Virus record (IMG/VR): IMGVR_UViG_3300046170_000116
Span: 1-49,490 of that record
Length of the DNA: 49,490 bases
From: a virus
Reading direction: 5' to 3' (one strand)
Shown piece after piece: positions 3,593 through 30,427 of this stretch (position 1 is its first letter; every line of letters starts with the position of its first letter). A program made the translations under genes and the position numbers. The notes beneath the pieces are model-generated. The model was not told the DNA's origin and searched no databases. It was given only the letters and a program-made list of their open reading frames with translations.

Positions 3593-3783
3593 GTAAAATG
3601 AAAGAACTAGATCAAGTTGCACAAGGTGTAGCGGATCATATTAAAGAAATAATATATCACACTGTTGAGTGGCAAATAGCAGATCAGCCTTTTGATGGCG
3701 ACGAGTTCAATGCTATACACGCGCAAGTTATGGATCGAGCAATCGAATACCTTTACAAACAAAATACGATCACCTCTGGATAA
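3589..3783 (+). CDS. Small acidic helical protein, unknown
   Basis: A 64-aa protein coupled by ATGA to the gene before it. It is predicted all-helical (LDQVAQGVADHIKEIIYHTVEW; FNAIHAQVMDRAIEYLYK) with net negative charge. Its 3' end contains promoter copy 6. Function unknown. Confidence 0.65.
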   Translation: MSKMKELDQVAQGVADHIKEIIYHTVEWQIADQPFDGDEFNAIHAQVMDRAIEYLYKQNTITSG

Positions 3784-3786
3784 TAT
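3755..3786 (+). promoter_or_regulatory. Early phage promoter copy 6
   Basis: ACAAACAAAATACGA at 3755-3769, 8-nt spacer, GGATAATAT at 3778-3786. It is the nearest promoter for the zinc-ribbon gene and for the structured RNA region at 3999-4383. Confidence 0.75.
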
Positions 3787-3812: not shown

Positions 3813-4001
3813 ATGTATTGTAGATGTGGTACAACCGTCCACCCTGTCCGTTTAGAACTGGGATATAAAACTTGTGTGAAGTGTTCAACAACTAAAACAT
3901 ACTCGTATGTCCCTATCATTGAGCACAAGACGGGCAATACAATACAAATCGTCAGCCAAGAAGTTAGCGCATCTGTGCACAGAGCTTGGCGGCGTAAATG
4001 A
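3813..4001 (+). CDS. Small zinc-ribbon protein
   Basis: A 62-aa basic protein with CRC near the N-terminus and CVKC about 18 residues later, a plausible four-Cys zinc ribbon. It is followed by a beta-rich stretch (YVPIIEHKTGNTIQIV) and a basic tail. Zinc ribbons of this size in phages bind DNA, RNA polymerase or other proteins; which applies here cannot be told. It is the only gene between promoter copy 6 and the structured RNA array, and a hairpin begins at its stop codon. Confidence 0.65.
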   Translation: MYCRCGTTVHPVRLELGYKTCVKCSTTKTYSYVPIIEHKTGNTIQIVSQEVSASVHRAWRRK

Positions 4002-4025
4002 TGGAAGCACCGTAATGGTCCATCA
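3999..4025 (+). ncRNA. Stem-loop at the head of the RNA array
   Basis: TGATGGA (3999-4005) pairs with TCCATCA (4019-4025) around a 13-nt loop; the stem includes the stop codon of the zinc-ribbon gene. There is no T tract, so it is not an ordinary terminator. It may protect the mRNA end or mark processing between the gene and the RNAs that follow. Confidence 0.35.
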
Positions 4026-4029
4026 AATA

Positions 4030-4143
4030 GCTACAAGTTAGTATCGAGTAGTAATGCGAGTGAGAATGCAAGTGAACTGGTGAGGGATCGTTATGAACTC
4101 AGGAATCTAAAAACACTCAATAGTTATTACCCTAGCTTGTAGC
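4030..4143 (+). ncRNA. Candidate structured RNA 1 (12-bp terminal helix)
   Basis: Positions 4030-4041 pair with 4132-4143 (12 bp, one G-U). Nested inside are GTAAT (4051-4055) with ATTAC (4126-4130) and GAGTG (4058-4062) with CACTC (4114-4118), then a smaller TGAG/CTCA hairpin near 4081-4101. The region has no convincing reading frame. The result is an extended rod of about 114 nt. No known RNA family is recognised; the fold is read by eye, without energy calculation or covariation. Confidence 0.45.
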
Positions 4144-4147
4144 ATAT

Positions 4148-4217
4148 GGGCGTGTAAATGGTTAGGGGTTCTGCTTTGTGCATTACCTAAACGCAGGTTC
4201 GATTCCTGCCACGTCCA
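4148..4217 (+). tRNA. tRNA-like element with acceptor stem and T-arm but no recognisable anticodon arm
   Basis: The 7-bp acceptor stem GGGCGTG (4148-4154) pairs with CACGTCC (4210-4216, one G-U), discriminator A at 4217, no encoded CCA. The T-arm is canonical: GCAGG, TTCGATT loop, CCTGC (4193-4209). Between them are only 38 nt. I could not fit a normal D-arm and anticodon arm. Instead TTAGG (4163-4167) pairs with CCTAA (4186-4190) and TGC with GCA above it, giving one long arm. It is either a tRNA mimic, like the tRNA-like domain of tmRNA or plant viral RNAs, or a decayed tRNA gene. No anticodon is assigned. Confidence 0.5.
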
Positions 4218-4222
4218 CTAAT

Positions 4223-4310
4223 AGAGAGATGGCAGATATGCAGCTATATACTTGTCCAACACAAAACGCGGGTAATCCGTAATCGAAGTGCTTCGTGGAC
4301 ACATCTCTCT
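4223..4310 (+). ncRNA. Candidate structured RNA 2 (9-bp terminal helix)
   Basis: AGAGAGATG (4223-4231) pairs with CATCTCTCT (4302-4310). Inside are a GCA/TGC hairpin with GATA loop (4232-4241) and a 6-bp helix TGTCCA (4253-4258) with TGGACA (4296-4301) stacked directly on the terminal helix. That helix encloses CGG/CCG (4269-4279) and CGAA/TTCG (4284-4295) hairpins. This is a multibranched fold of about 88 nt starting 5 nt after the tRNA-like element. No family is recognised. Confidence 0.45.
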
Positions 4311-4320
4311 TAAAATATTA

Positions 4321-4383
4321 AACAGTAGGTACCAAGCCTGGACAAGAAGGGTGCAGCGTTACCGAGTCGCAATGCCTACTGTT
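4321..4383 (+). ncRNA. Candidate structured RNA 3 (9-bp terminal helix)
   Basis: AACAGTAGG (4321-4329) pairs with CCTACTGTT (4375-4383). Inside are CCA/TGG with an AGCC loop (4332-4341) and GCG/CGC (4356-4370). It lies 10 nt after structured RNA 2 and about 40 nt before the start of the next gene, so it could also act as a 5' leader. TGGACAAG at 4339-4346 is the exact complement of CTTGTCCA at 4251-4258 in structured RNA 2. Confidence 0.4.
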
Positions 4384-4422
4384 AAAGTATTACTAATTTT
4401 AAAACAAGAACAAATGCCAAAT

Positions 4423-4611
4423 ATGAGTTATTGTCGGTTTGAAAACACCGTCACAGACATGCAAGATTGCGTAAATGCAATCGAAGAAAGAGACACAGAT
4501 GAGCTCAGCAGCTATGAAGTCAACGCTCTTTCACACTTTTTAGATCTCGCAAGAGAAATTACTAACCTCGAATATGATATCGAAGAAATACTAGGAGAAT
4601 ATGACAGCTAA
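4423..4611 (+). CDS. Conserved small phage protein (MSYCRF type)
   Basis: A 62-aa acidic helical protein. The frame stays open upstream to 4288, but that part runs through the structured RNAs and has unlike composition. The MSYCRFEN start at 4423, followed by TVTDMQDCVNAIEE, matches a type of small protein I recall from many phages, so 4423 (or MPN at 4414) is the likely start. Acidic residues are dense (EERDTDELSSYE). It overlaps the next gene. Function unknown. Confidence 0.65.
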   Translation: MSYCRFENTVTDMQDCVNAIEERDTDELSSYEVNALSHFLDLAREITNLEYDIEEILGEYDS

Positions 4612-4873: not shown

Positions 4874-4875
4874 TT

Positions 4876-4907
4876 ACAAACAAAATACGAACACTAACGG
4901 ATAATAA
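4876..4907 (+). promoter_or_regulatory. Early phage promoter copy 7
   Basis: ACAAACAAAATACGA at 4876-4890, 8-nt spacer, GGATAATAA at 4899-4907. It is the last copy seen, only 12 nt before the next ATG, and the DNA metabolism block begins downstream of it. Confidence 0.75.
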
Positions 4908-20989: not shown

Positions 20990-23900
20990 TTAAATTCTGT
21001 TTAGTGACATTATTGAATCTTTTGCTCTTTTATTCTTCTTTCTAGTTGCCGCTGCCTTTCTAGCTGAGGCTGATCTTTTTAATCTAAGATCTCTATAATA
21101 TTTGTTTCTTTGTTCTTCTGATAAATTATTTATAGAATCTTGTTTTTTCTTTTTATTTATTTCTCTTGTTTTCTTAGCTTTGATTTTACCTTGTTCTTTT
21201 CTTACTTTTTTAGCTTCTAATTTTATCAAATCAAACTCTTCGTTTTTAGCTCCTACATCCCAGGTTCTGTAACCAAGACCAAGTGAAATCCTTTGAAGCT
21301 TAGTATTTCTTTCATCAAACATTTCAGCTATACTTTGAGCTTCTAAAACAGCTCTATCTAAAGGTATATTTAAACCAGCCGATGCTACACTACCTATTAT
21401 ACTATATGTAGGCGAAGGGTTAAATCTACCTTCTATAGTAACATCCCAAGGGTGTTTAGCTATAACGTCTTTATCAAATTTACTTGTTTGTATACCACTG
21501 TAAATTTTTCTAAGCTTAGACCCTATTGGTGGAGACAAGTTAGCAGCTTCTATTATCGTGTAAGTGTGATCTGCTTTGTATCCTTTTTCCTCTTGCCTAG
21601 AGTATTGTAGGTATGTATTTTTAATAGCGGCTATAACAGCACCGTACATGCCAAAACCTCTAAGCGTAGAGTCTGCCATACCGTTTATAATTTTAATACC
21701 CTTTTTGTCTAGTTCTTCGTCAAACTCTTTATCATCTTCTTCAAAGCCTGGTATTAAGGCAAATAGAGACTGTTGCAAAGCGTTAAATATAAAGTTTTGC
21801 ACAGCTCCGTAGTACAATATCTTAGATATATGTGTTTTAGCATCTCCTCGTCCATTTATAAGATCTCTAGCGGCTTTTACTTGTATTCTTGTATATTGCA
21901 TTGTAGTATTCTGAAAAGCCAATATAAGACGCCCAGCTACACTACGTTGTTGTTGTGAAACTAACGCTGGATCACCAGACTGCTGAGCCACGTCAGACAG
22001 CTTGCTAAAATCTTCAAAAGCTTTTGTTTCTGCTTCTGATTTAGACATACCTTGTTTAGTGTATGTTTTTACTCTGTTTCTATAAAACGTAGCACCACCC
22101 ATTGCTATAGCAAAACTATCTGCTAGCTGTGTAGGTGTAAAACCTATTTTAAGTAAATAAGAAACAATAGCAGATGCTTTATCTTTGCTATTCTTAGCGG
22201 CGTTAGCTATTTCAGCTTCTTGAACGTCTGATTTTAATCCACTACGTCTCTGCTTTAGCTTATCAGAATTAAATATCATAGTGAAATCTTTCCAGTATTG
22301 TTTTTGATTAGCGAAAGCCATAGCGGCCTTTAAAGGGTTATTGTCACTCCAGTTTATAAAGTTTACAGTGGATAACGTTTGAAGCAAAGCTGATCTACGG
22401 TTAAAGAACATTATAGTACCTACAGAGTTATTAACCCAGTTTAACCATCTATTTGTTATAGAGTTACCACCTGTTGGTCTGTTTGTTCCGGTCTTCATAG
22501 AATATAAAGCATCTTCTATAGCGTCTCTAGTAGTTTTACCATATAACGCTTCAACTTTGTTTAAGTTTTTATCACTAAAAATTTGATCTACGTTTTCTAT
22601 AAACTCATTTAAGTACTCTTTTCTGTTTATTTTTTCAGTAAGATTACTAATATCAGTTACAATAGTATGAGCATCCCAAAACTCAGTAGGAGCAGGCCAA
22701 CCGTTAACGTTAGACTTAGTTACTAATATTAAACCGTCGGCAAATGCTTTTAATTCTGTATCTTTACTTACTAAGCTGTTTAACTTCTTTTGATCTCTTT
22801 TGGCTATACCAGGTATGTCATAACCTGCTTTTGTCCATAAATACACTCTTACAGCAGCATCGTATGTAAAGTCGCCGCCAGGTATTAACTTGTTAAGCTT
22901 AGCTTTGACTGGTTTAAAAGTTTTTAAAAGAGCTTTAAAATCGTTTTTAAGAGTTTGTCTAGCTGTTTCCATAGCAGCTACACCTTTAAAGTAAGGGTCC
23001 ATTAATGCGTCTTCAAAAAACTTTTGATCAGCATCGCCCTGCTTGCCTTTGCCGGCAAAAACATATTGTGTTAAACCTCTAAAGTCTTCTGCTCCAGGAG
23101 CTAAAAACTTTATACCACCAGCCTTTTTTCCTCTTCTTCTAGCCACAACCTTTGAAAACACTTTTATGGACTCAACACCTGTTTGTCTTTCTATCATGTC
23201 GTTGAACTGCCTGTGTAGTGTTTCGCTAAACTTTATTTTAGCTTGTTGAACTTTGCCTTTTACGTCAAAGTTGTCTAAAACTTCTTTAACAGCGTTAACA
23301 TTTTTAATAGCGTCGTCAGCAAAGTAAAAATCATTATAACCTTCAGAAACCTTACCAACCATCCAATCAGCTTTAGCCTTAGCATTTCCATCAGCTAAGC
23401 CTGTTATATTTTTTAAAGGTATATCTATACCTAGTGATTTCATAAAATCTTTAATAGGTCCAGCGGCATCCTGTGGCCTAGCTGTTAATATAAACAAATC
23501 TTCTGTACCTCTTTTATCTGCTATTTTTTTAGCCACCTTAAATAAAGGTCCTTTTTCACCATCTATAACCTTGCTGAACTCGCTGAAGTCAAACGTAGCT
23601 CCTTGAGCCTCTAAGCTAGCGGCTTGCTCCGCAAACTCAGTAGCGTTTATTGTTTTAACACCTCCAGGTACTTCTTTTAAAACCTCCGCCTGTTGCTGAT
23701 CTGTCAGACTTTCAAAGTTTTGTTGAAAGCTAGGTTTATTTTTAAATTCATCTTTAAACTTTCTTCTAGCTACAATATCAAGCATATCCTTATCAATACT
23801 AGAAACAGGCATGTTAACAATTACCCTGCTTTTAGATTTGGCTAATGTGTCGTCAAAGTCAAATACTCTTATTTTTTTAGAACTTTGTGACCACTTTATA

Positions 23901-26900
23901 GAACTAGCTGCAAGAGCTGCTTTTTGCTCTTTAGCCACTTGAATCGCTTGAGAGGAAGCGTTGTCCTTTAGTATAGAATTAAACGCAGCCCACTCTTCTC
24001 CAAATACCTTTCCTTTACTATCACCTCCAAGCTTTTTTATAGGAACAATAAAGTCCATACCATAAGTCGAGTCATTGTAATACCTATGCCAAGCTGGATC
24101 TGTAGATGGATCAAAACCTATATTCATTGTAGATTGAGACTGTATATTTATAAGCTCGTCCATATCTTTGGGCACAATAGCGACCTCATAAGAGTTTTTA
24201 AGAGCATCTAAATCAACTTTACCAGACCAAAAATGCTCTGTAAGCCTCATTATCATGTAATTAGTAGGAATTAAATGTTCAAATCTAACTTCTTGATTTG
24301 TATCTCCAACAAAATAATAAGCTACATTAGCAGCCGCCTTAAGCATTGATTCCATGTTGCTATCAAGACTTTTCATAGTAGCAACCCACAACAAAGGATT
24401 ATTTTTATTTCTAGTAAACTGTAAAAAGTCTATCATGAGATCAAAAGCTTCGTCAGACTCGGCTTTACGTTGATCGTACTCCGCTTCAAACTCAGCTTCT
24501 GTTTTTACTGTTTTCTCACCTTTTACAATTTTGTAAGCACTTTGAGGTAGCGTTTTAGTGTTAACTACTAGTAAGCCGTTAGAGTCTTTTAATTTATCTA
24601 CAGTTGTATTATTTTTTTCTGCTAATTTTTTAATATCTGCATCTGAAACTTTACCTGTATAATAGATCTTGTACGTATCTTTTTTACCTTTTCGCTTTAT
24701 AACCTCTACTTTTACGTCGGGTATTAAGTTTAAGTTGTTAATGTAGTAATCTGTAACTCCATTGTAGTACTGACCTCTACCTCCACCTATCTTGGAACTT
24801 GTAACGTTGTGGCCTTTCATCCACCTTAGTATTTGCTGTAAACCTTCGTATCCTTTCTTATTAACTAAGTCTGTGTTAAACTCAAGTTCGTTCTGTCTGC
24901 TTTGACGCTGAACACTCTCTTGATCACCCATTTTTGTAAATCCTCCAAATATATCATCTTTTGTTAGATTTAAAGGAGTGAGAAGATCTTCTTTGTTGTT
25001 CAGCTTATCTATAGCATTATTAACAAATTTAGTGAAATCTAAAGCATATAAATCTTTTTTGTTTTTAAAGTAGGTATTTACCGATGCTACAATTTTTTTA
25101 GATATTTGTTTTAATTCGTCTTGAGATATTTTATCACCATACACATTGGTCATTATTTTTCTAAGACTAGCTTCTGTTAGCTTTTCTACATTGGCATCTA
25201 AAATAGATTTTTCTAAAGAAGGTAAACCTTCCATAAAAGTTGATTCAGAAAACTTAATAGTACCTCTTTCCGATTGTCTTGAAAACTCTTGTAAGAAGTC
25301 TACTGTTAACACTGCATTTAGTCTAGACTGATTTTCTTTAAACGCCTTAGTTAAATTACTGTCTTTATTTTTTAGCTCTCTATTTATTATTTCTATACCA
25401 ATTTCGCCAGCTAACTCTTTAGCCATTGACTCTTTCTTACCGCGTATAGGTTTGCCTGACGATATAACATTACCATCAGCATCTGCTTTAACGTTTTCAA
25501 GAACTGTAGCCACAAAGTCAGCATCAGATATTTTTCTAGCAGCATTAGGTGTTCTTCTCATGATCTGAGCACCCGATGTTTTTCCAGCGTTGTTCGTAGT
25601 GGTTTTTTCTACGTCAATCTTTTTACCTTGCCAGTCACTAGTAAAGTTAGGTACAAAAGTAAAATTACCATTATTATCTTTAACTCTGTTACCGTTTTCA
25701 TCTACCTTGTACTTGCCGTCTACAGATTTTTGTATTGCAGCGGGTATGGCTTTTGCCAGCCAAGACGTAGTTGCGTTTTCTAAAACAGCTTTTTTGTTTT
25801 TAATTAGCCACTTTTGTAGCTTAGAGTCTGCAACACCACCCATTGCTTCTTTTAAATCAATATCCACTTGTGAAGATATTTCTCTTTTAAGTTCACGAAG
25901 AAGCGGAGATATAGCTTGGTTCTTAGAAACGCTAGCATCTATTCTAGACTTTAGCACTCTAACCGTACTTATTACTTTGTCTTTTATTTTATTAATAGTT
26001 TCTCCTGGTAGAACTCTGCTGTCTATTATTTTTATATAAGTAGGCTTTTTTGGTGCATTAGTAGATGTAACCTCGTTAGCATCTCCTGAAACTTGCTTAG
26101 CTTGATCTGAGTCAATAGACTCACTTGTTGGATTGTTCTTAGCATCGACAAACTCTTGCTTTGCAACTTTTTTACTAAATGCAGCATTTGATGTTATAAA
26201 TTCAAATAAAGCTCCAGAACCTACTTTTTCACCACTAGACCTAGTCTTTGCCGGGTTGAAGTTTTTTAATCTATCAGCTAATATTCTAATAACTTTTGCA
26301 CGTTCTTGTGGTGAACTAGCCTTTGATGATACATACTTTTGAATAAGAGGGTGTAATTTACGATCATTATATATAGGATCAAAAACGTCTTGCCTATAAT
26401 AATCTATTTGATTTTTTACATCAGAAGGTATTAAGTTATTTATTTTTTCTCCAAGACTTGTCTCACTAAAACTAATATCAGATTTTGTGTCTGATTTTTT
26501 ATTTGTAACAATAAAAGTATCATTTTCAAAACCAAATGAACCACCTAGTTTATCAGCCATAGTTTCAGCTAGTCTTTTATAAAGCCTAATTCTACTATCT
26601 TCTTTTGCCGTAAATACAACTCCTTCTACTTTAGGATTATTTTGTAAATAATCTACAACTCCATTTATATTAACTGAAAACACCTCAAGAGCGTTACCAG
26701 CCCCAGTTATATCCATACTGCCAGCGTTATCTGCAAACTGTAAATGATAAAATTTTTCAGAACTTGATATATCATCACCTTCAGAATCTTTTTGTATACC
26801 TAGTTTTTTAGCTATATTATCAATGTCATCATAAGTTTGGCCTTCGTCAAACTCCATGAAAGCAGTCTCTTCTAATCTAGTAGTATATTTTTTTCCTTTA

Positions 26901-29900
26901 ACTTCAAAAGTAGTTTGTACATCTTCGTCGGTTTGTTTCCAATTTAAATCTTGTCTAGTAGTTAGACTAAAACTAACGTCACCTTGTGAATCAGTGCTTA
27001 CGCTTGAATCTTTTATGGAAGAAATAGCTGAGTTTTTCTTAGCAGCTTTTACGTCTGCTAGAGTTAAAGTACCATCTGCTATTTTCTTGCCTATACCAAC
27101 AACAAAGTTGTACATATCAGTTTCGCCTCTAAAATCAAACTTATAATCACCTTCAAACTGCTTTTGCACCATTATACCTAACAAGCCAGCAATACCTTTA
27201 GCTTTTTTATCTTGCTTAAAATCAACTTCGTTAGCAGCTACAAACTCTAAGAACTTAGATATAACTTCTGTAGGATCATTTATTTCGTTTCCAATATCTT
27301 TTAATAAGTCGTTGTAAACTTTAGAGTCAACATTTTTAAGAGTATGTAATAATTGATTAGATATATTCTTAAACGCGTCACTGTTACCGTCTTGGCCTAG
27401 TAGCTCCCAAAACGCCTGATGTCCAACCTCGTGCGTCTTAGTGTATGCTCGTTGGTTTTTAACTTGATTTTCTACTACCGCAACAGTTTGTTTAGTAACA
27501 GGGTTAGCATAACCATCGTTACCTCTTTTTAAACCATCTGTTATTGTTTTCTTTTGATCTGGGCTAAGATCTTGATTATCTAGATCTGCTATAGCTTCAT
27601 CAACAGTTTCAAAAGACTTGAAGTCTTTAAATACACTTGAATTTTTTCTACCTTGCTTGGAGTTTTCAGCTCTTGCTTTATCTGCAAAGTATAAGTCATA
27701 AGCTCTTCTGTTAGTTGCTTCTTTAGAAGGATCTTTTCCATTTGATTCCGCAAACAACTGAGATGCTGCTTGATCTTGATACTCATCATATTTTTCAGGA
27801 TCAGAACCTTTTAATGCAGTAAACTCAACGCCATTGTTTTTCATGGTTCTAGCGTTTATCGCTGATTCCTTCACCTCTACCAAGTATTTAAACTTAGCTT
27901 GTAGCTCTTGTATTTCTTTAGCTTTTTCCGCTTTTGATAAAGTTGGATTGTTTTCTATTTCTAAAGCTTGAGCCTGTAAGTCTGCCATTTCTTTTTCTAT
28001 AGCAATAACGTTCTTAGCGCCATCTTCGGTCATGTGCTCATTAAGAAGGTTTTCTCTAGCTTCTACGGCTTTGTTTAGCTTATCTGTATTGTCTTTTATT
28101 CTTTTTTCAAGAAACTTAGCTCTCTGTGAGTTGTCTTGAGCTGAGTTGTTTTTTGCTGGTATTCTTCTATTGCTTTTATCAAAAACAGTATAATCAGACA
28201 ATAAGCCATCTAACTCTTTACCGTCTTTGTTTATTTGAACCATTAAATCTCTAGCCTGCTTTCTCTCGCCATATGTAGATCTACTAGCGTTGTAAGTTCC
28301 CTTCATAAAAGGCACAGCAGCAAACAGCAAACCAAAACCAGCTCCTGAGAAGCCAGCATGATCCATTCCTTGTGTGAAGTTATTACCATCTATAAGGTTT
28401 TGAGTTCCTACAGTTGCGATTTCACCTAAAGATTCAGAAAGAGGTTCGTATATCAAACTAGATCCTCTTTTCTTAAAATACTCTTTCATGCTGTTATTCA
28501 CAACCTGTTCCTTGCCATCTAATATCCAATTCTTCTTAGCTCTTCTAAGAGACTGAACAGTTGTTAATTGAGCGAAACCACCTTCAGCAACACCATAACC
28601 TATACTCTTAAGCCATATCTCGCCCTTACCGTAGTCAGCATTACCCATAGCTACTTCAGCTTGCATGTCTATCATTTTGCTTCCAGCACTAGACGCACCA
28701 ATAACAACACCCGCAGAGCCACCACTAGCCATCATAGCTACCAATATAGGTAGTTGGTTACTTACTTCTTGTCCTAAAAATTTTCCAAAATTTGATCCAC
28801 TAGAAAAAGCATCTTCAAAGCTAACATCTCTCACGTAGCTGTCTCTTATTCTTCTAGAATACATTGAGTAATCAGCACCTAGCTCGGCTAATCCATCGCT
28901 TTGGCCCAGTGTTAATATATTGCCACCTAAAAAGAACATGCCAGCTCCAATATCTACAGCGCCCATACCCACGTTTGTAGCGTATTTTTCTAGTTCATTA
29001 TAGTTTTTACTAGCGGCTAAACTAGAGGCTTTTATATCTTTTATGTCACCTATAACTTCTTGCTGTTCTTTTTGATACTTGTTAAATAATAAATCTGAAG
29101 CTAAGTAATTTTCTCTTAAAGAGTTTCTAATTAAATACTCGTTGCGGTTCATTGAAGTACCGTCGCTTAATTCAACTACTCTTTGGTCGGAAGGATCTAT
29201 AAATATGTTATTTTTAGCAGCATAATTATATATTAAGCTATCATTTTTTTCAGCCTCCTCGATTGTTGTTTCTTTGCCGGTGTTTTGCACGGCTTTGTGG
29301 ACTTCTAATATATTTTCTATTTCCTGGCTTAGTATATTTGTTTTTTTAGAGTTTAGATTATACTTATCAGCTAAATCACCTTCTATAAACTGTGCTCCAC
29401 TAAACATTTCCTCTTGACCGATATCGCCATCGTTTACAGCTCTTTCTCTTTCAGCATACTTAGCCTCGTCTAGAGCCTGCGTGTATAGCATTTTTCTAAC
29501 AATTTGCTTAGCTTTTTTGTCTATATCTTCTTTGCTAGCTTCAGGGTGTATTTTTCTAAGCCTCTTTATAGCGCTATTAAGCTCTTCTTCATGAGGTTGT
29601 ACGGTTTTCTCAACAAGTGGACTAGTATTAACAACTATGCCAGTGGTAGATGAAACGTACCCGACGTTTGCCTGTTGCTTAACTTTATAAGGCGTGAAAA
29701 GATCTTCGTTATCTAAAATATCAGCCTTGTACTTGTCTTCTGCTTTTTGTATGTTTTCGTTGCTACTTTCCCAGTTTAAATAAGTTTCCCTAGTTCCTTT
29801 ACTTTGCTTTCTCCAGGTCTTGTAATCTATAGAGCTCTCATTTTCTTTTATGAAATTCTCTATCTTGGTAGTTGCTCTTTTCCAGTCTTCAGGATCGTCA

Positions 29901-30427
29901 GTATTAGTTTCAAAGATCATTTCTTTTCCACCAATAGAAGCTTTAACAACGTTACCACCTCTCATGGGGTTGTATTTGTCATTGCTATCTCTGTCTAGTC
30001 CTTTTTCAGAGTCAATTTTTAATTGGTTTTTTCCATTAACGTAATAGCTATTTACTGCCTCAAATTTAATACCTGAAAACTTATACAACTCATTTAGGCC
30101 GTCAGCGGCTTCATTGTCCATCATGCTAAAAAGTTTACCATTAGGCTTCATTTCATAGCTGTCTGTGTCTTCGTTATATACTCTAGTGTTTAGCTTGCCT
30201 AGTAAATCCGAAGAAAAATCCTCCGAAGACAAACCCGTATCTTGTACTGCTTGGTTTTTCGACCCTACAATCGCAGTCTCCTTTGCAGGGCCTTGTTTCT
30301 TTACTGGTGGGTCAGTTTGCTCTATATTATATTTTTTAATATAATCTTCCACGCTAAGGTTTAGGTTGCTAGAAGCTGCTTGTATTCTTTCTAATGAAAC
30401 CTCTTGACCGTTATAAATGTATGGCAT
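20990..30427 (-). CDS. Giant polyvalent ejection protein with zincin motif and HAD-like domain
   Basis: A 3,145-aa protein, the longest gene here. In order: N-terminal charged region; hydrophobic helices about 490-610; HEVGH zinc-peptidase motif at 999-1003; possible acetyltransferase-like part about 1230-1315; a helical mid-part; FEHLIP (possible HNH-like) before a HAD-like domain starting VFDFDDTLAKS (Asp2190, Asp2192); then membrane-seeking C-terminal helices and a Lys/Arg-rich tail. Short [VI]-x-[FW]-S motifs recur at 1151, 1318, 1724, 2177 and 2398, near domain edges. It fits large polyvalent proteins, likely packaged and injected with DNA. Individual activities are inferred. Confidence 0.85.
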   Translation of the reverse strand: MPYIYNGQEVSLERIQAASSNLNLSVEDYIKKYNIEQTDPPVKKQGPAKETAIVGSKNQAVQDTGLSSEDFSSDLLGKLNTRVYNEDTDSYEMKPNGKLFSMMDNEAADGLNELYKFSGIKFEAVNSYYVNGKNQLKIDSEKGLDRDSNDKYNPMRGGNVVKASIGGKEMIFETNTDDPEDWKRATTKIENFIKENESSIDYKTWRKQSKGTRETYLNWESSNENIQKAEDKYKADILDNEDLFTPYKVKQQANVGYVSSTTGIVVNTSPLVEKTVQPHEEELNSAIKRLRKIHPEASKEDIDKKAKQIVRKMLYTQALDEAKYAERERAVNDGDIGQEEMFSGAQFIEGDLADKYNLNSKKTNILSQEIENILEVHKAVQNTGKETTIEEAEKNDSLIYNYAAKNNIFIDPSDQRVVELSDGTSMNRNEYLIRNSLRENYLASDLLFNKYQKEQQEVIGDIKDIKASSLAASKNYNELEKYATNVGMGAVDIGAGMFFLGGNILTLGQSDGLAELGADYSMYSRRIRDSYVRDVSFEDAFSSGSNFGKFLGQEVSNQLPILVAMMASGGSAGVVIGASSAGSKMIDMQAEVAMGNADYGKGEIWLKSIGYGVAEGGFAQLTTVQSLRRAKKNWILDGKEQVVNNSMKEYFKKRGSSLIYEPLSESLGEIATVGTQNLIDGNNFTQGMDHAGFSGAGFGLLFAAVPFMKGTYNASRSTYGERKQARDLMVQINKDGKELDGLLSDYTVFDKSNRRIPAKNNSAQDNSQRAKFLEKRIKDNTDKLNKAVEARENLLNEHMTEDGAKNVIAIEKEMADLQAQALEIENNPTLSKAEKAKEIQELQAKFKYLVEVKESAINARTMKNNGVEFTALKGSDPEKYDEYQDQAASQLFAESNGKDPSKEATNRRAYDLYFADKARAENSKQGRKNSSVFKDFKSFETVDEAIADLDNQDLSPDQKKTITDGLKRGNDGYANPVTKQTVAVVENQVKNQRAYTKTHEVGHQAFWELLGQDGNSDAFKNISNQLLHTLKNVDSKVYNDLLKDIGNEINDPTEVISKFLEFVAANEVDFKQDKKAKGIAGLLGIMVQKQFEGDYKFDFRGETDMYNFVVGIGKKIADGTLTLADVKAAKKNSAISSIKDSSVSTDSQGDVSFSLTTRQDLNWKQTDEDVQTTFEVKGKKYTTRLEETAFMEFDEGQTYDDIDNIAKKLGIQKDSEGDDISSSEKFYHLQFADNAGSMDITGAGNALEVFSVNINGVVDYLQNNPKVEGVVFTAKEDSRIRLYKRLAETMADKLGGSFGFENDTFIVTNKKSDTKSDISFSETSLGEKINNLIPSDVKNQIDYYRQDVFDPIYNDRKLHPLIQKYVSSKASSPQERAKVIRILADRLKNFNPAKTRSSGEKVGSGALFEFITSNAAFSKKVAKQEFVDAKNNPTSESIDSDQAKQVSGDANEVTSTNAPKKPTYIKIIDSRVLPGETINKIKDKVISTVRVLKSRIDASVSKNQAISPLLRELKREISSQVDIDLKEAMGGVADSKLQKWLIKNKKAVLENATTSWLAKAIPAAIQKSVDGKYKVDENGNRVKDNNGNFTFVPNFTSDWQGKKIDVEKTTTNNAGKTSGAQIMRRTPNAARKISDADFVATVLENVKADADGNVISSGKPIRGKKESMAKELAGEIGIEIINRELKNKDSNLTKAFKENQSRLNAVLTVDFLQEFSRQSERGTIKFSESTFMEGLPSLEKSILDANVEKLTEASLRKIMTNVYGDKISQDELKQISKKIVASVNTYFKNKKDLYALDFTKFVNNAIDKLNNKEDLLTPLNLTKDDIFGGFTKMGDQESVQRQSRQNELEFNTDLVNKKGYEGLQQILRWMKGHNVTSSKIGGGRGQYYNGVTDYYINNLNLIPDVKVEVIKRKGKKDTYKIYYTGKVSDADIKKLAEKNNTTVDKLKDSNGLLVVNTKTLPQSAYKIVKGEKTVKTEAEFEAEYDQRKAESDEAFDLMIDFLQFTRNKNNPLLWVATMKSLDSNMESMLKAAANVAYYFVGDTNQEVRFEHLIPTNYMIMRLTEHFWSGKVDLDALKNSYEVAIVPKDMDELINIQSQSTMNIGFDPSTDPAWHRYYNDSTYGMDFIVPIKKLGGDSKGKVFGEEWAAFNSILKDNASSQAIQVAKEQKAALAASSIKWSQSSKKIRVFDFDDTLAKSKSRVIVNMPVSSIDKDMLDIVARRKFKDEFKNKPSFQQNFESLTDQQQAEVLKEVPGGVKTINATEFAEQAASLEAQGATFDFSEFSKVIDGEKGPLFKVAKKIADKRGTEDLFILTARPQDAAGPIKDFMKSLGIDIPLKNITGLADGNAKAKADWMVGKVSEGYNDFYFADDAIKNVNAVKEVLDNFDVKGKVQQAKIKFSETLHRQFNDMIERQTGVESIKVFSKVVARRRGKKAGGIKFLAPGAEDFRGLTQYVFAGKGKQGDADQKFFEDALMDPYFKGVAAMETARQTLKNDFKALLKTFKPVKAKLNKLIPGGDFTYDAAVRVYLWTKAGYDIPGIAKRDQKKLNSLVSKDTELKAFADGLILVTKSNVNGWPAPTEFWDAHTIVTDISNLTEKINRKEYLNEFIENVDQIFSDKNLNKVEALYGKTTRDAIEDALYSMKTGTNRPTGGNSITNRWLNWVNNSVGTIMFFNRRSALLQTLSTVNFINWSDNNPLKAAMAFANQKQYWKDFTMIFNSDKLKQRRSGLKSDVQEAEIANAAKNSKDKASAIVSYLLKIGFTPTQLADSFAIAMGGATFYRNRVKTYTKQGMSKSEAETKAFEDFSKLSDVAQQSGDPALVSQQQRSVAGRLILAFQNTTMQYTRIQVKAARDLINGRGDAKTHISKILYYGAVQNFIFNALQQSLFALIPGFEEDDKEFDEELDKKGIKIINGMADSTLRGFGMYGAVIAAIKNTYLQYSRQEEKGYKADHTYTIIEAANLSPPIGSKLRKIYSGIQTSKFDKDVIAKHPWDVTIEGRFNPSPTYSIIGSVASAGLNIPLDRAVLEAQSIAEMFDERNTKLQRISLGLGYRTWDVGAKNEEFDLIKLEAKKVRKEQGKIKAKKTREINKKKKQDSINNLSEEQRNKYYRDLRLKRSASARKAAATRKKNKRAKDSIMSLNRI

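Follow-up and report, generated by a model that had tools for sequence, protein, structure and literature searches.

The window analysed here is a linear virus contig of 49,490 bases, in which early genes lie on the + strand and structural genes on the - strand. The structural region includes a single ORF of 3145 aa (20990-30427, - strand). The large terminase showed 66% identity to a spring-water phage and 48% to Flavobacterium 'elemo' phages, and phages of Cellulophaga and Tenacibaculum were also among its matches. Because the terminase resembles those of Flavobacterium, Cellulophaga and Tenacibaculum phages, the host of the window virus is probably a flavobacterium. We observed seven exact copies (0 expected) of a bipartite promoter-like motif, TACAAACWWAATACGA-N9-GATAATA, all on the + strand and confined to the early region (179-210, 367-398, 804-835, 1318-1349, 2339-2370, 3754-3785 and 4875-4906). 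Similar motifs stand ahead of genes in related phages. Tandem paralogous small early genes at 434-661 (SKRFVVRKSLIG...) and 839-1111 (SKRFVIRKSLIG...) each have a copy ahead of them.

The structured block that concerns us lies between two small genes on the + strand. Directly 5' is a gene for a 62-aa zinc-ribbon protein (3813-4001, CxC...CxxC) with a conserved tail, SYVPIIEHKTGNTIQIVSQEVSASVHRAWRRK. We found 169 relatives of this gene in IMG/VR and kept 80, which were 79-100% identical. Pfam and PHROG searches with the protein gave no match, a profile search against solved structures was empty, and a TraR-type C4 zinc finger was weakly hinted at (E 0.05); the AlphaFold model reached a pLDDT of 57. 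A second zinc-ribbon family has the YHKTGNTIQI motif in common with the main family and a different C-terminus (L113:1304-1517, L116:13259-13472 and, on the reverse strand, L096:1341-1569; L numbers denote related loci). The 3' border is formed by the MSYCRF gene (4423-4611, + strand; 262 IMG/VR relatives), whose product belongs to PHROG 8760, a family of unknown function. At the start of this gene (4409-4467), ~55 nt are 78-88% identical to hypothetical genes of jumbo enterobacterial phages, e.g. GAP32. One promoter-like motif (3754-3785) lies immediately 5' of the zinc-ribbon gene, the following copy (4875-4906) marks the end of the unit, and there is no further copy between them. Since the motif occurs at 3754 and next only at 4875, the RNA block most simply shares one transcript with the zinc-ribbon and MSYCRF genes, in agreement with the single transcript supposed in the original prediction.

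Five closed RNA folds, separated by short, A/U-rich linkers, occupy 3999-4383 on the + strand, each where it had been predicted. Element 1 (3999-4025) is a stem-loop, TGATGG(AAGCACCGTAATGGT)CCATCA, whose helix begins at the stop codon of the zinc-ribbon gene (TGA, 3999-4001). The supposed gene-free gap is therefore the 3' flank of that gene. Element 1 is identical in L001, L003 and L005, and L048 carries its core with another closing helix. Element 2 (4030-4143; scaffold S3) is a rod with a closing helix of 12 pairs, including one G-U. Its core is kept in L141, L153, L157, L173 and L175, where closing helix and insert differ. Within element 2 lies the insert M5 (4073-4106, TGAACTGGTGAGGGATCGTTATGAACTCAGGAAT), variants of which occur in L138, L147, L152, L171, L185 and L198. 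The third fold, TLD1 (4148-4217), is a tRNA-like domain (TLD) with a 7-bp acceptor and a T-arm. Element 4 (4223-4310; scaffold S4) is multibranched and closed by a perfect 9-bp helix, AGAGAGATG/CATCTCTCT, with relatives in L001, L003, L084, L093, L105, L111, L119, L124 and L125. Element 5 (4321-4383), also multibranched, has a perfect 9-bp closing helix, AACAGTAGG/CCTACTGTT. A 97% identical copy lies directly 3' of the TLD in L017, and the element is missing from the near-identical phage L001, which indicates that its gain or loss is recent.

Only short ORFs were found in the block, and no convincing reading frame crosses it, as originally stated. With the insert lengths of TLDs in relatives spread over the frames as well, we rejected protein coding. 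Relative to dinucleotide shuffles, the whole block folded with a z of -2.5, and 4 of 100 shuffles were as good. The z values were -2.65 for element 2, -3.2 for the TLD, -2.9 for element 4, -1.9 for element 5 and 0 for element 1. Judged by energy only, element 1 thus does not stand out, and element 5 is borderline. For this reason, the case rests on comparison with relatives. The moderate whole-block energy and the ordinary element 1 would suit folds that arose at random next to the remains of a tRNA gene in an AT-rich gap, a reading that covariation and recurrence over >100 loci refute and to which we give practically no credence.

TLD1 comprises the acceptor (4148-4154/4210-4216), a D-like region (about 4155-4164), a variable insert (about 4165-4189), the T-arm (4193-4209) and A73 (4217). 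CTA follows at 4218-4220, and CCA is not encoded. The fold has a variable helix and neither a D-stem nor an anticodon arm. ARAGORN called no tRNA at TLD1, which scored 32 bits against RF00005 (tRNA; threshold 29) and 34.4 bits against RF00023 (tmRNA; cut-off 47). An ordinary tRNA gene was rejected on the ARAGORN result, the missing anticodon arm and D-stem, and the lack of a cloverleaf with its 7-nt anticodon loop. The prediction that this was no ordinary tRNA stands in these respects, with the qualification that the RF00005 threshold is reached. Discriminator base and CTA instead of CCA were also seen in ordinary tRNA genes of related loci (L029:3579-3652; L090, 3' of the TLD).

We anchored TLD loci on the MSYCRF gene, the zinc-ribbon gene or sequence patterns and obtained 108 unique versions. 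They have in common a T-arm, a brief D-like stretch containing GG, an insert that is paired but variable, and A73, usually followed by CTA. The acceptor reads GGGCGTG, GGGAGTG or GGGGGTG, paired with CACGTCC, CACTTCC or CACCTCC. G3:U70 was present in 103 of the 108. Part of the 3' side had been fixed in the pattern scan. We therefore recounted this pair, leaving the 3' side free, on TLDs with the GTGA motif from gene-anchored loci and observed it in 59 of 62. In the acceptor, pair 4:69 is found as C-G, G-C, A-U and U-A, and the T-stem pairs 50:64 and 51:63 covary. Pairing in P2 was 0.61, compared to 0.40 when shuffled (largest of 500 shuffles, 0.46). The inserts measure about 20-81 nt, with lengths evenly spread across the three frames, and an mRNA-like domain with a tag reading frame was found in none of the TLDs.

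Eight relatives (L002, L005, L017, L024, L154, L176, L190 and L197) reached 53-65 bits against RF00023, above its cut-off of 47. This subgroup, only ~81 nt long, retains a D region like that of tmRNA (TGGTATTGACG), from which most copies of the TLD have diverged (AAATGGTTAG, ATAAGGTAAG). The near-invariant G3:U70, together with the D region and scores of the subgroup, identifies TLD1, by its sequence, as a tmRNA-type TLD with the alanine signature G3:U70/A73 and a variable insert in place of the message domain. The original prediction had recognised no known family, which applies to the other modules; the tRNA-like element has a known parent in tmRNA. In tmRNA, G3:U70 is completely conserved as the identity signal for AlaRS, and the 5' end is cut by RNase P (PMC3985003). 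The TLD resembles tmRNA (SsrA, RF00023) in its 7-bp acceptor, G3:U70, A73 and T-arm, in having no D-stem and in a P2-like helix that leads to the insert. Unlike tmRNA, it measures 70-130 nt rather than ~350, has no mRNA-like domain, tag reading frame or pseudoknots, carries one of many swappable modules as its insert, and is encoded by a phage within a cassette. A permuted or two-piece tmRNA was rejected: the acceptor closes within 70 nt, and a weak RF04321 match was at chance level.

These features raise the question of a tmRNA without a message, the alanylated TLD occupying SmpB, AlaRS, EF-Tu or the ribosomal A site and so damping trans-translation in the host, with the modules as stabilisers or spacers. 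We consider this unlikely. It would account for the tmRNA-like D region and above-threshold RF00023 matches of the minimal forms, for cassettes that are essentially a TLD alone after the stop codon (L178, L185 and L209) and for the retention of G3:U70 and A73, and a TLD fragment of tmRNA is sufficient to bind SmpB in crystals (PMC3985003). However, the D region has drifted in most copies, and this reading would not account for conserved, shuffled modules that precede the TLD.

A second tRNA-like family also occurs in the cassettes, with the form AACTAGGTATGG or AACTAGGTCAGG .. CTACTGACGAGTA, a T-arm and CTAGTT ACAA (L003:4435-4540, L015:4512-4610, L034, L098, L106, L171 and L210). The alanine signature is lacking in this family, which carries a variable insert of its own and a short hairpin in the variable arm.

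We compared the block with about 280 related loci. Matching each window element singly to these loci revealed sharp breakpoints. L018, L026 and L019 share both ends of element 2 around a different middle, and the middle of the window copy (M5) has a 100% identical counterpart within the TLD of L096. When all TLD inserts were searched against all loci, the same pieces were found free, in TLDs and in other scaffolds. S17 (GATTAAAGGCG..CGGCTCGATGA) occurs free and in the TLD, S2, S7 and S8; S6 occurs free and in the TLD; and S3 occurs free, in the TLD (L141, L157 and L175) and in S7. Nesting reached three levels (L203; one S2 insert). In a new context, the core is retained and its closing helix exchanged for another complementary strand pair, such that cores stay mostly 97-100% conserved over 20-60 nt across contexts while closing helices change freely.

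Compensatory changes in homologous gaps, proposed originally as a check, were found. Across 15 modules, delimited by hand-written patterns and several of them with only two to six contexts, the summed closing helices came to 281 bp, compared to 203 bp when right flanks were shuffled between contexts (largest of 2000 shuffles, 238 bp). For the 35 distinct inserts of S2, the mean insert-end helix was 5.94 bp, compared to 2.52 bp when shuffled (largest of 5000, 3.4 bp). These excesses over shuffled values indicate compensatory evolution at the module joints. Because many modules were not significant singly in the closing-helix test (S9, S10, S15, M1, M2, M3, M4, S1 and S18), the covariation claim rests on the pooled test together with S2, S3, S17 and S20. 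A match of L245 to the S17 pattern was rejected, since it looks like a chance match in coding DNA. Overall, these comparisons make it well supported that the elements are modules, in which constant cores are joined by interchangeable helices and inserts, often other cores, are swapped and nested between phages. Together with the alanine signature of the TLD and a conserved small gene ahead of the cassette in most relatives, this nesting and swapping, which varies by phage, goes beyond the original prediction.

Modules that move between sites and nest in the manner of recombining DNA segments could also be hairpins acting as DNA, that is, single-strand folds used for recombination or exchange with the RNA form incidental. 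G.U and A.C helix counts over whole arrays (36 vs 27) were at or below shuffled values and did not separate RNA from DNA hairpins; the evidence for the RNA strand therefore rests on the TLD. There, DNA gives no reason for a G3:U70 wobble that stays invariant while other pairs covary, the T-loop TTCGANN and A73 are RNA features, and the TLD follows early genes on their coding strand. We thus regard action as DNA as very improbable.

The cassette mostly begins 0-500 nt 3' of the zinc-ribbon gene. Where enough upstream DNA was available, 32 of 38 TLDs found by pattern had this gene within 2.5 kb upstream. The pairing is not obligatory, because the gene occurs without a TLD or cassette in some phages, and some TLDs follow other early genes, partly beside the second zinc-ribbon family, which accompanies TLD copies unlinked to the main gene. 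The TLD is usually the last element of the cassette, and tRNA genes sometimes follow. Over 45 cassettes, a helix starting at the stop codon averaged 6.1 bp, compared to 4.6 bp at other offsets, a modest excess; the window's row was out of register in this average, its true helix start being the TGA at 3999.

Beginning close to or at the stop codon and lying inside what seems a single transcription unit, the cassette could be a structured 3' or intercistronic region that protects or separates early mRNAs, where structure matters and module identity does not. Module M2 (AGAAATAGGAGGCGAAAGCCACACTAACT) points the same way: in other phages, it lies 3' of a gene whose product ends in SPDLPF, with a C-terminus that is SSB-like by eye (L223:6454(-), L228:2280 and L231:979), and within a terminator-like hairpin followed by a run of T's (L224:623(-) and L232:5542). 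From these positions, single modules may have plain 3'-end roles. As an account of the whole cassette, mRNA protection seems improbable to us: cores keep their sequence down to single bases (mostly 97-100%, 20-60 nt) while closing helices vary, and pure stabilisers need neither fixed loops nor alanine identity.

Relatives were absent from 50,697 isolate or deposited phage records and from a plasmid collection, which gave only short matches to T-arms, tRNAs or the MSYCRF gene. A pattern scan of 84,980 species genomes returned two contigs (L219 and L220) from one MAG labelled Aliivibrio. Both carry the same phage genes, and we rejected a bacterial origin and took them as phage DNA. The cassette belongs to aquatic, uncultivated phages whose hosts are probably Flavobacteriia.

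Rfam 15 at the gathering cut-off detected no family beyond tRNA and tmRNA in 33 related loci, so that known Rfam ribozymes and large phage RNAs were rejected there, and a permissive scan outside the TLD gave only chance-level scores. The TLD is like phage tRNA genes (RF00005) in its T-arm, acceptor and discriminator with CTA flank. The T4 stable RNAs C and D are small phage RNAs of unknown function in a tRNA operon. Compared by description, the cassette shares with them small RNAs beside tRNA-type elements on an early transcript; unlike the cassette modules, RNAs C and D are not known to be modular, nested or swapped. GOLLD and ROOL are large structured phage RNAs near tRNAs. The cassette differs from these in being a string of exchangeable small modules with no Rfam match in the 33 loci. 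It can also be likened by description, as small phage RNAs with a possible counter-defence role, to RNA anti-CRISPRs (Racr), which mimic CRISPR repeats (PMC10651486). No published description was found in the searchable literature, mostly without subscription papers. Two features had no counterpart in Rfam 15 or that literature: a TLD that stands alone and carries exchangeable modules where the message would be, and the recursive exchange of RNA modules. The parent of the TLD, tmRNA, is known.

The best explanation of the whole, to which we assign a probability of roughly 50%, is a modular RNA cassette with a TLD-displayed module and putative baits or inhibitors. The cassette would be transcribed together with the zinc-ribbon gene. 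By analogy with tmRNA, RNase P would cut the 5' end of the TLD, the 3' end would mature like that of a tRNA, and the host AlaRS would charge the TLD with alanine. The charged TLD would then present the module on a stable RNA whose ends are protected, and the upstream modules would be released or retained in the mRNA 3' region. A role of the TLD as a processing site, as in tmRNA, is plausible. We propose only tentatively that the modules bind specific host proteins or RNAs as putative baits or inhibitors, most likely directed at host defences that vary. Such binding would explain both the fast turnover of combinations and the strong conservation of cores. Combinations that change fast around conserved cores would be expected in an arms race and resemble protein anti-defence islands. 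More doubtful still is the fuller picture, in which a tmRNA-derived, alanine-charged scaffold and a nestable module grammar would form a rapidly recombining RNA island for counter-defence or host takeover, equivalent in RNA to the anti-defence islands made of proteins.

Standard annotation (ARAGORN, Pfam, PHROGs and isolate-phage databases) overlooks whole structured regions of this kind. The cassette supplies a set of small, naturally occurring RNA modules and is nature's counterpart to engineered tRNA scaffolds. Whether phages possess RNA islands directed at host defences becomes testable, as does the extent to which a tmRNA may shrink and stay charged. If our reading is true, a tmRNA-type TLD can serve as a free-standing scaffold without a message, and phage noncoding RNA would evolve like protein domains, with whole folds swapped and nested via shared helices.
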